From: an uncultured Chthonomonas sp. | Lineage (GTDB): Bacteria; Armatimonadota; Chthonomonadetes; Chthonomonadales; CAJBBX01 | Reading direction: 5' to 3' | Assembly: GCA_903885605.1 (NCBI GenBank) | Contig: CAISJD010000202.1 | Coordinates: 1-32,684, forward strand | Length of the DNA stretch: 32,684 nt | Part shown: one piece after another, positions 3 to 2,656 of the stretch | Layout: every line of letters begins with the position of its first letter | Position numbering within the stretch: position 1 is the stretch's first letter | Position numbers and translations under genes: made by a program | The notes under the pieces: model-generated | What the model saw: only the letters and a program-made list of their open reading frames with translations | Told to the model about the DNA's origin: nothing | Database searches by the model: none

Positions 3-1586
3 CCGCTGGACGCCCGGCCCGCCGCGCCGCAGCCGCTCGACCTGCGCCCCGCCGCGCCGCAGCCGCTGCAACCGACACCCGTCGCGGCGCCCGCGCCGAT
101 CCCGATCGCTCAGCCGCCGGCTCCCACACCGATTCCGATCGCCAGGCCCGCCGGACCTGCGCCGATCCCCATCGCCAAGCCCGCTGCGCCCGCACCGATA
201 CCGATTGCGAAACCTGCCGCGCCGGCCCCGATTCCGATCGCGAAGCCTCCGGCTCCGGCGCCTATCCCGATCGCAAAGCAACCGGAACCCGCCGCACCGG
301 CTCCGATCCCGATCTCGAAGCCCACCGCGCCCGCGCCGCCGCCCGCGCCTGAACGGCCAAGGCCGACCATTCAGGCGGCATCGGCCGATGACCTCGACCT
401 GCCGCCGCTGGCAACCATCGCCGACGAGCCGCCCAAGGCCGCCGCCCCCTCGGGCCGGTTGGACCTGACCGGCGTGCCCATACCCGAACTGCCCACCGTC
501 GAGGCGCGTGGTCCGCAAGCTCCGCAACCCAGGCCGGCGGCTCCTGTGGCGCCGATACCGCCCGCCATGCCGCCGTCGCTTGCCACAGTCGTCCCGCCCA
601 TGGCCGGCGCGCCGGTCGCCGTGCCGAGGGCCGGCGGGCGGACGTGGTACTGCCGCTGGTGCGGCATGGAGAGCGAGGCCAGCGACAAGTGCAGCTGGTG
701 CCGCAAGGACCTGCGCAACCTGCCCTCATCGGGCCAGCAGGGTCGCGGACCCATCATCTCCGGACGGCCGACGGGCAAGCAGAAGCCTGCCGGCAAGGGC
801 AAGGGCCAGCAGCCGCAGGCTCAGCCCGCCCCGACCCCGGTACAGCCGGCGGCTCCGCCCGCCCCGGCGCCCAAGGCAGCGCCACCGGCGCCGCCCAAGC
901 CGCAGCAGCAGGCCCCGCCGTCGAAGCCCAAGGCCGCCGATGTGGGCATCCCCGAGATGACGCGGGTCCAGACCACCAAGTCGAAGTACTACCAGGACCA
1001 GGTGGTCGACCAGGTCTCAGGCACGCAGTATGACACCGATACCGGCGAGGTCGCCGGGAAGCCCGTCATCACCGTTGAGGGCATGGCCGAGGAGGAGCGC
1101 AGCCAGCTGGTGCGCAGCATCACCCTCTACTCCGGCGCCCTTGCGGCGGCCGTGATCGTGGGTACGTTGCTGACGCACTTCATGCCCAGCTGGTACCTGC
1201 TCTTCCTGGCGATGGTGACCTTTGCCGCCGGAATGGCGTTGCCGCTCTTCGGCGTGGCGCAGTACGGCGAGGACGACTCGACCGACGTGGGCTGGTTCGT
1301 GGGCTTCGCCGGCATCGGCGGCCCGTTCGTAGGCGGAATCGCCTACGGTGTGCTGGGTCTGATCAAGGGCGACGCCAACCCGGCGCTGGCGGGCATCTTC
1401 ATCGTGTCGCTTCTGGTGCGCATTCCGCTTGACATGGCCAAGGGAACCTCCATCGGCGCCTCGCTGAACGGCCTGATGCCCTTCACCGATCCTACCAACG
1501 CAATCCACTGGGCCGCCCAGCTGATGACGTTCCTGGGCTTGGTGGGTTGGTACTTCGCGGGGATGTTCCACAAGCTGGACGAGTAG
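3..1586 (+). CDS. Proline-rich, zinc-ribbon, multi-pass membrane protein (5' end outside window)
   Basis: The reading frame is open from the first bases of the window, so the gene starts upstream and 527 residues are visible. From the N-side it has about seven proline-rich repeats of roughly 11 residues (core APAPIPIAKP, about residues 29-110), then more Pro/Ala-rich sequence. A zinc ribbon follows (CRWC at 217-220, CSWC at 230-233), then a second Pro/Ala/Lys/Gln linker (about 245-305). The C-terminal part has about five hydrophobic segments (about residues 375-520). The stop is TAG. I do not recognise a named family. The architecture resembles the many bacterial membrane proteins with a cytoplasmic zinc ribbon joined to a bundle of helices by disordered linkers. 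The function is unknown, and the proline repeats suggest a flexible spacer or a protein-binding arm. It converges on the glutaredoxin gene. In-frame TTG/ATG codons exist inside, but the repeat region reads in the same frame, so I treat it as coding. Confidence 0.8.
   Translation, partial: PLDARPAAPQPLDLRPAAPQPLQPTPVAAPAPIPIAQPPAPTPIPIARPAGPAPIPIAKPAAPAPIPIAKPAAPAPIPIAKPPAPAPIPIAKQPEPAAPAPIPISKPTAPAPPPAPERPRPTIQAASADDLDLPPLATIADEPPKAAAPSGRLDLTGVPIPELPTVEARGPQAPQPRPAAPVAPIPPAMPPSLATVVPPMAGAPVAVPRAGGRTWYCRWCGMESEASDKCSWCRKDLRNLPSSGQQGRGPIISGRPTGKQKPAGKGKGQQPQAQPAPTPVQPAAPPAPAPKAAPPAPPKPQQQAPPSKPKAADVGIPEMTRVQTTKSKYYQDQVVDQVSGTQYDTDTGEVAGKPVITVEGMAEEERSQLVRSITLYSGALAAAVIVGTLLTHFMPSWYLLFLAMVTFAAGMALPLFGVAQYGEDDSTDVGWFVGFAGIGGPFVGGIAYGVLGLIKGDANPALAGIFIVSLLVRIPLDMAKGTSIGASLNGLMPFTDPTNAIHWAAQLMTFLGLVGWYFAGMFHKLDE
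88..330 (+). repeat. In-frame tandem repeat, mostly 33-bp units (APAPIPIAKP)
   Basis: About seven imperfect units encode A-P-x-P-I-P-I-A-K/R/Q-P with a two-residue variable tail. Most units are 11 codons (33 bp), with some of 10, 12 and 14 codons. Bases vary at third positions while the protein pattern is kept, which suggests selection on the peptide. The repeat lies inside the truncated membrane protein gene. Confidence 0.85.
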
Positions 1587-1634: not shown

Positions 1635-1886
1635 CTAGCCGAGTATGCGATCCAGCGCCGCCTCCAGGTCGCGGTCCGTGGGCTCCACCAGCGCCTCGCC
1701 GCCAAGCAGGATCGTGGGCACCTTGCCGGATCCCCCGTTCAACCCGCGCATGGCGGCTTCGGCTCCGGCGACCCGCTCGATGTCGATCTCCACGAACTCC
1801 ACGCCGCGCGCCGTGAGCAGGCGCTTGGATCGGTGGCAGTCGGGGCACCACGAGGTGGTGTAGGCGACAACCCTGGGTTGCGGCAT
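1635..1886 (-). CDS. Glutaredoxin-like thiol-disulfide oxidoreductase
   Basis: A small 83-residue thioredoxin-fold protein. The dithiol active site is CPDC (C14, C17) after the first strand and turn (YTTSWCPDC). The cis-proline loop is KVPT (P57), as expected in glutaredoxins. The CPDC centre and length fit the glutaredoxin/NrdH/mycoredoxin-like class that reduces disulfides or mixed thiols in the cytoplasm. Which reductant it uses (glutathione, mycothiol, bacillithiol or a thioredoxin reductase) cannot be told from sequence. The start is ATG with GGAGGAG about 8 bases upstream. It lies 23 bp downstream of the zinc-ribbon membrane protein gene on the same strand, so the two are probably co-transcribed. 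This suggests, without proof, that it keeps the zinc-ligand cysteines of its neighbour reduced. Confidence 0.88.
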   Translation of the reverse strand: MPQPRVVAYTTSWCPDCHRSKRLLTARGVEFVEIDIERVAGAEAAMRGLNGGSGKVPTILLGGEALVEPTDRDLEAALDRILG

Positions 1887-1909: not shown

Positions 1910-2656
1910 TCAGCGGCCGGGGCGCGGCGCGGCATCGCCCGTGAGGCGGACGACGGCCGTGGCGCCGAGTTCGCGGATGCGGCGGCGTATGGCGTCGGCT
2001 TTGCGCTCCGGCACGTTGCGGACCAGCGTCAGGGGCAGGGCCTCCATCTGGCGGCGGGCATCGGGCAGGTTGCAGACCAGGATATCCTGCAGGGCCAGCG
2101 CGACCTCGGTGGGGTTGCGCCCAACCTGGGTCAGGATGACGTCGAAGTTCTGCATCATGTCCGACGCTTCGGCGACGATGGACTTGGGGTCGTTCGGATC
2201 GGTCAGCGTCAGGCCGCGGTTACACTTGTCGCAGGTGAAGCGGACGGCCTTCACGGAGACCTTGTGGCTGGCGCGGCAGATGGGGCAGGTGAGGTCGCGC
2301 ACGGGGACCGGAAGCCCGTTCTCGTACTGCACGCGGCGGTGGCAACCCTCGCAGGTGTAGTCCTCGGTGGGCTGCGCCAGGAACATCATCTGGTGCTCGC
2401 AGTAGGGGCAGTAGACGGCCAGGCTAGGCCGTTGCCGCGCGCGGTTGGCGCGGAACCAGCCGACCGACATGATGACCACGCCGGCGGCCATGCCCAGCGC
2501 CGCCACGGGCCAGAGCTGGTAGAGGTTTACGAGCTTCAGGATCCACAGTAGCACCGCCGACACGACGAGGATGACCACGCCCCGGATAGCCAGCCTCACG
2601 GCTATCTCATAGGCGCGCTCCAGAAGATCGGAACGACTGTTGGTGGTCTGCGCCAT
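1910..2656 (-). CDS. Membrane protein with two zinc ribbons and an L7/L12-like C-terminal domain
   Basis: The protein is 248 aa. Two hydrophobic segments (about 24-42 and 49-68) form an N-terminal hairpin in the membrane. Two zinc ribbons follow: CPYC (83-86) with CEGC (102-105), and CPIC (124-127) with CDKC (142-145). Residues about 169-238 look like the C-terminal domain of ribosomal protein L7/L12. They begin FDVILTQVG, continue through a helix-turn-helix carrying the LPDAR/ALP pattern, and end with VPERKADAIRRRIRELGA. The true L7/L12 domain binds translation factors on the ribosome. Whether this copy does so is unknown, and such domains also occur outside ribosomes. The ATG has GGGAGAGG just upstream. 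A near-consensus promoter lies about 75-100 bases upstream of it. The glutaredoxin gene follows 23 bp later. The family as a whole is not one I can name. Confidence 0.82.
   Translation of the reverse strand: MAQTTNSRSDLLERAYEIAVRLAIRGVVILVVSAVLLWILKLVNLYQLWPVAALGMAAGVVIMSVGWFRANRARQRPSLAVYCPYCEHQMMFLAQPTEDYTCEGCHRRVQYENGLPVPVRDLTCPICRASHKVSVKAVRFTCDKCNRGLTLTDPNDPKSIVAEASDMMQNFDVILTQVGRNPTEVALALQDILVCNLPDARRQMEALPLTLVRNVPERKADAIRRRIRELGATAVVRLTGDAAPRPGR

Follow-up and report, generated by a model that had tools for sequence, protein, structure and literature searches.

Architecture of the protein

The window analysed here, a 32,684-nucleotide stretch of DNA from an uncultured Chthonomonas sp., encodes a membrane protein whose C-terminal end resembles that of the ribosomal stalk protein bL12 (L7/L12), and the question is whether this end still serves translation, now at the membrane, or whether an old fold has been given another partner. 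The features of the gene, its neighbours and the related loci are collected in Table 1. The first-pass annotation had seen the L12-like domain as joined to a membrane hairpin and two zinc ribbons, and the arrangement holds across the family: the four CxxC pairs are present in all 55 aligned members, and two hydrophobic segments are found in 44 members, one in 10 and three in 1, segments being counted with a hydrophobicity threshold of our own choosing. Four CxxC pairs fit a double zinc ribbon, for which a metal-binding role is predicted; among the best 25 of its 35 Pfam matches, the window protein has no zinc-ribbon model over its cut-off. The second membrane segment of the window protein is followed by a strongly basic stretch, which suggests that its zinc-ribbon and L12-like parts would lie in the cytoplasm; in other members, the charge after the membrane segment is weaker, zero or slightly negative.

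Table 1. Positions of the gene, its domains, its neighbours and related loci. Coordinates without a locus prefix are those of the window.
Feature	Location	Strand or orientation	Basis or detail
248-aa gene: TM hairpin, two zinc ribbons, L12-like C-terminal domain	1910..2656	(-)	frame, orthologues, dN/dS
Putative two-helix membrane hairpin, residues 8-74	2435..2635	(-)	low-confidence AF2 helices 8-43 and 46-74; hydrophobicity
Zinc ribbon 1, C83-C86 / C102-C105	2342..2410	(-)	invariant in 30/30; CxxC conservation
Zinc ribbon 2, C124-C127 / C142-C145	2222..2287	(-)	CxxC conservation across members
bL12 (L7/L12) C-terminal-like domain with altered factor-binding face, residues 171-236	1949..2146	(-)	PF00542, PDB, profile, model, alignment
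83-aa glutaredoxin (WCPDC)	1635..1886	(-), same strand, 23 bp downstream	PF00462, E 1.4e-13
Convergent gene	459-1586	(+)	N-terminal CxxC pair (CRWC, CSWC), Pro/Ala-rich linker, hydrophobic segments
ECF sigma and TM-protein loci	L107-L111, L113-L118, L120, L124-L127, L132	upstream	neighbour clustering
bL28-type neighbour loci	L047, L050, L054, L057-L061, L064	convergent with gene or gene pair	
TM and zinc-ribbon-only versions	L124:5892-6353, L125:5857-6315, L126, L127		152-153 aa
uL10-bL12 frame	L066:237-1295	(-)	352 aa
uL10-bL12 frame	L065:1822-2916	(-)	364 aa

For the whole gene, comparisons inside the genus give dN values of 0.016-0.030 and dS values of 0.34-0.40. Divided by domain, dN/dS is about 0.08-0.16 for the L12-like domain against 0.02-0.05 for the membrane and zinc parts; the L12-like domain is the part of the protein under least constraint. 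The AF2 model of the full-length protein is too weak (pTM 0.38) to base conclusions about its fold on.

Origin of the C-terminal domain

The likeness to the L7/L12 C-terminal domain, originally noticed by eye over residues of about 169-238, is borne out by profile searches. PF00542 matches residues 171-234 at 29.1 bits (cut-off 25.9, E 1.2e-6), the match taking in positions 1-64 of the 67 in the profile; the first sequence matches of phmmer in the PDB are the E. coli L7/L12 chains (E about 3e-4), and a profile of 30 family members improves the L7/L12 match to E about 1e-7. Individually, 17 of these 30 members match PF00542 at E <= 0.01. In single hhalign comparisons, the family aligned with bL12 at a probability of 98.6 and E 1e-15 and with ClpS at a probability of 58 and E 1e-4, while bL12 and ClpS aligned with each other at E 0.02; the bL12 set consisted of 15 sequences (14 from Armatimonadota and that of E. 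coli) and the ClpS set of 30 sequences of relatives. Core residues are largely common to 55 family domains and 14 bL12s, and P91 (55/55) and A103 (53/55) stand in register with bL12. At the level of sequence comparison, the homology to the bL12 C-terminal domain (PF00542) is thus confirmed, and we read the domain as descended from bL12 within the L12/ClpS fold. The protein as a whole is no bL12: its score of 28.1 bits with the equivalog model TIGR00855 lies below the cut-off of 84.4, as expected since the domain is common to otherwise different proteins. A separate bL12-type gene in the same genome, clipped by the contig start, scores 103.6 bits.

The predicted structure agrees with the expectation of an L7/L12 fold. 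An AF2 model of residues 163-240, built from four sequences, has the element order b-a-a-b-a-b of the bL12 C-terminal domain family, at a pLDDT of only 70.9, and a Foldseek search of the PDB with this model places E. coli L7/L12 at the top (1rqu, E 3e-4, TMq 0.70; 1ctf, 8.5e-4) and ClpS after it, from about 1e-2. With the weaker full-length model, Foldseek gave no match at E 0.001, and L7/L12 came second at 0.022; the list was headed by RBR ubiquitin ligases (probability 0.63 and 0.38), which we took as zinc-ribbon likeness and set aside. The model would fit the ClpS fold as well (Z about 9-10), and ClpS and L7/L12 are tied in VIA-align, with Z of 10.0 and 9.6, so it is the sequence that points to bL12.

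An altered factor-binding face

According to the title of a reference in PMC12737465, the L12 C-terminal domain has a conserved region to which IF2, EF-Tu, EF-G and RF3 bind. For the comparison of this face, 55 family domains were aligned with 14 Armatimonadota bL12s; the family set omits the window protein (L003), the same-genus L004 and L005, L129 (very like L024/L025), L130 (short) and L124-L127 (without the L12-like domain). The bL12 residues that we take to contact translation factors, K65, K70, R73 and G79, are kept in 13, 14, 13 and 14 of the 14 bL12s, against 2, 2, 1 and 0 of the 55 family members, in which position 73 is mostly Q (44/55) and position 79 mostly N (41/55). The mean charges of helices 4 and 6 are inverted between the two groups: net charge over positions 65-74 averages +2.0 in the bL12s and -1.36 in the family, and that over positions 99-113 -1.79 and +1.67, respectively. 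The last helix of the family is conserved and basic, with the motif P-x-R/K-K-A-D/E, and K occupies position 102 in 50 of the 55 members, a position that is E, D or A in bL12. From the residue losses and the charge inversion, we argue that the surface for translation factors has probably gone and that another surface is conserved. The earlier suggestion of a translation-factor-type domain placed at the membrane is weakened accordingly by these counts; its companion, in which the fold would now serve a different partner, fits the loss of the factor face better.

A glutaredoxin neighbour

Directly downstream of the membrane gene lies a small glutaredoxin gene, assigned to its family by a PF00462 match of 51.3 bits against a cut-off of 22.9 and by its CxxC. 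A search of 61 relatives at E <= 1e-6, a threshold that more distant redoxins would escape, found the glutaredoxin in 23 genomes, 20 in the window's order and 3 elsewhere. Among the 31 genomes of the order, 20 have both genes, 8 the membrane gene only, 3 neither and none the glutaredoxin only. All 20 matches follow the membrane gene on its own strand, at a distance of no more than about 200 bp, and at this threshold no match was found away from the membrane gene within the order. The 8 genomes lacking a match beside the gene, of the 28 that have it, are to be read with G010 in mind, where the gene runs off the contig. Outside the order, the pair was seen in 1 of 38 fetched loci (1/33 and 0/5; genome G196, locus L128). 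The paired redoxins carry CxxC in 13 of 14 cases and CxxS in one (L054). The glutaredoxin is a probable operon partner of the membrane gene.

Distribution of the family

The protein was matched in 44 of 61 genomes at 1e-3, the weak matches including ordinary bL12s (13 such loci were examined), and an alignment search gave matches in 212 of 291 Armatimonadota genomes at 1e-5, bL12 again among them. Taking listed matches with E <= 9e-27, we count the membrane protein in 147 of the 291 genomes, partial matches included (those of G010 and G160 end at profile positions 118 and 187); in the codes assigned by the search tool, the families represented are f1, f2, f3, f6, f14, f28, f29, f30 and f31. 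Four of the 147 genomes, all of one genus, lack the L12-like domain, their proteins ending after the zinc ribbons. A remnant of the lost domain was sought near these four shortened genes and none was found in place; a minus-strand match at L124, over 32 positions with E 0.005, was not counted as one. A wider contig scan found three loci, labelled Armatimonadetes bacterium, uncultured Chthonomonas sp. and bacterium, and a plasmid search with the membrane protein returned no match. In another family of the phylum, L130:2328-2690 encodes a shorter protein that has a membrane region and a single zinc ribbon and may be a relative of the N-terminal module.

A possible role and its alternatives

With the presumed factor-gripping residues replaced and a redox gene as a frequent neighbour, the domain has probably been redeployed to keep some other partner at the membrane, and we favour this over translation-factor binding. 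Put as a working model, to which we give somewhat less than an even chance, the protein would be a cytoplasm-facing docking platform at the membrane, with zinc ribbons served by the glutaredoxin and a bL12-derived end for a partner that is not a translational GTPase. The hairpin would anchor the protein, with the topology proposed above; the double zinc ribbon would form a cysteine-rich middle module, the metal or thiol state of which the downstream glutaredoxin may maintain or switch; and the C-terminal domain would dock its partner via the conserved basic last helix. The zinc ribbons could instead be purely structural or bind nucleic acid. Counting against the model are the 8 genomes of the order in which the gene has no glutaredoxin match, the rarity of the pair outside the order, the CxxS redoxin of L054, the genus in which the protein ends after the zinc ribbons and the comparatively low constraint on the L12-like domain.

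The alternatives differ mostly in what they make of the C-terminal domain. A membrane-bound stalk, with the domain still binding translational GTPases (EF-Tu, EF-G, IF2 or relatives) and concentrating them or ribosomes at the membrane, would agree with bL12 being the best sequence relative and with a face that is not changed throughout, position 84 being still basic in 53 of the 55 members and position 82 E, D or Q in 51; against this stand the near-complete replacement of the four presumed contact residues and the inverted charge of positions 65-74, and we hold the stalk to be quite improbable. Another role known for the same fold is that of ClpS (PF02617), and a ClpS-like adaptor, binding proteins or the Clp unfoldase and passing substrates on at the membrane, would account for the tie on Z, for a ClpS profile that is closer to the family than to bL12 and for a ClpS-like ...LQ in helix 4 of the family. 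The pocket, however, tells against it. Of the E. coli residues that we take to form the ClpS N-degron pocket, N34, D35 and H66, none is kept in the 55 members: the N34 column never has N and has D in 6, the D35 column has neither N nor D in any, though the D36 column next to it has D in 19, and the H66 column never has H. Judged from these columns, the N-degron pocket is absent from the family. Moreover, separate ClpS matches occur in 28 of 31 genomes, including the window's own, and PF02617 does not appear for the window protein among the best 25 of its 35 Pfam matches; the adaptor is, we believe, very improbable.

A rather different possibility, in which the protein would be a regulatory accessory to an ECF sigma-factor unit that signals at the membrane, comes from the gene neighbourhood. 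Of 33 loci taken from other families, 17 have genes for an ECF-type sigma factor and for a TM protein upstream in the same orientation, the TM-protein gene being 27-94 bp away in 11 loci and 831-959 bp in 6, and the sigma identity was confirmed by Pfam in all four genes tested. The cluster is nevertheless absent from the other 16 loci and from the 25 clusters listed for loci of the window's order and some further loci, and in 13 of the 33 loci a pyrophosphatase gene (Pfam on one) stands downstream on the same strand, so the gene context varies; such an accessory role seems improbable for the family. Finally, the likeness to bL12 might be chance or convergence upon a generic small a/b fold. Unrelated PBP2x and SpoVD chains do reach Z 7.0-8.4 in VIA-align, and the confidence of the domain model is modest, but a near full-length Pfam match over the cut-off, the low E-values of the profile and hhalign comparisons and the conserved P91 and A103 in register with bL12 make an origin other than descent hardly credible.

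The docking platform that we prefer can be extended to a history, one that we offer as a conjecture and think unlikely to hold in full: a membrane zinc-ribbon protein would have captured a bL12 domain, which lost its factor face, gained a conserved basic face for docking and now forms the output arm of a membrane switch that is under glutaredoxin control and has been retained by several Armatimonadota families. The case matters in that a ribosomal stalk domain has apparently left translation and persisted in many genomes of a single phylum, the residues that we take to be factor-binding being consistently replaced in the membrane copy. The presence of bL12 and the membrane copy in one genome provides a natural comparison for finding the residues that make the stalk domain specific to GTPases, and the finding draws attention to a membrane protein with a possible redox link in a phylum that has been little studied.

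Relation to known proteins

With the bL12 C-terminal domain, the family shares the order of elements, the length, the core residues and the invariant P91; unlike bL12, its domain is tethered to membrane segments and zinc ribbons, has K65, K70, R73 and G79 replaced and ends in a helix that is on average basic instead of acidic. The zinc-ribbon model of YgzB / DUF2614 (PF11023, PRK02935) also aligns with the N-terminal half of the family: PRK02935 is matched by 7 of 30 members at E <= 0.001 and by the window protein at E 0.11 (12.3 bits, cut-off 108), and member L122 reaches 23 bits with PF11023 (cut-off 21). YgzB / DUF2614 carries a TM hairpin, and YgzB has a link to PerR; the family model of 118 positions leaves no room for an L12-like domain. 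Similarly, the zinc-ribbon stretch of the DmmA C-terminal domain (NF041259, PF22289) aligns with window residues 47-109 at E 4.9e-7 and with 16 of 30 members at E <= 0.001, and within NCBIfam the E-value of the window protein is slightly better for DmmA than for the bL12 equivalog. The score of 30 bits against a cut-off of 60 leaves the protein outside NF041259, and the DmmA family is without the L12-like domain.

Of a similar kind are the TM proteins encoded beside Skillet-2 lipocones, which, in the excerpted text of PMC12419801, have a ClpS-ribosomal L7/L12 domain in their cytoplasmic region. They, too, are membrane-anchored, and a zinc ribbon occurs in an alternative form; as excerpted there, they have a single TM segment, with either an HTH fused to L12/ClpS or a fusion of a zinc ribbon and a helix, whereas a single chain of the window family combines the two-helix hairpin with both zinc ribbons and the L12-like domain. 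An excerpt of PMC7159879 describes the L12/ClpS domain as inserted in vWA conflict-system components with beta-propellers in some Bacteroidetes, which is, as in the window family, a reuse outside the ribosome; the available part of PMC3581485 has no mention of L12. Given these published fusions and reuses, as far as the excerpts describe them, membrane proteins in which an L12/ClpS domain is fused to other parts are of a kind already known. A hairpin, a double ribbon and a bL12-like domain combined in a protein whose gene neighbours a glutaredoxin did not appear among the papers listed in our literature searches.

Other neighbouring genes

The gene convergent with the pair in the window (459-1586) has related ORFs in 8 independent loci and no Pfam family over the cut-off. 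In one family of the order, a bL28-type gene is convergent in 9 loci, as judged by clustering (with sequence in 7 and Pfam on 1). Shadow frames of real genes were disregarded in the neighbour clusters. At L109, the TM protein beside the ECF sigma gene has a weak STN match, below the cut-off.

In two genera of family f4, uL10 and bL12 share a single open frame that no stop codon interrupts, and the Pfam models for uL10 and for the dimerisation and C-terminal parts of bL12 all score over their cut-offs. Just before the bL12 ATG, these frames have a purine-rich stretch (GAGGGAGAG / GAGGGGGAG), so an internal start may yield free bL12 as well.
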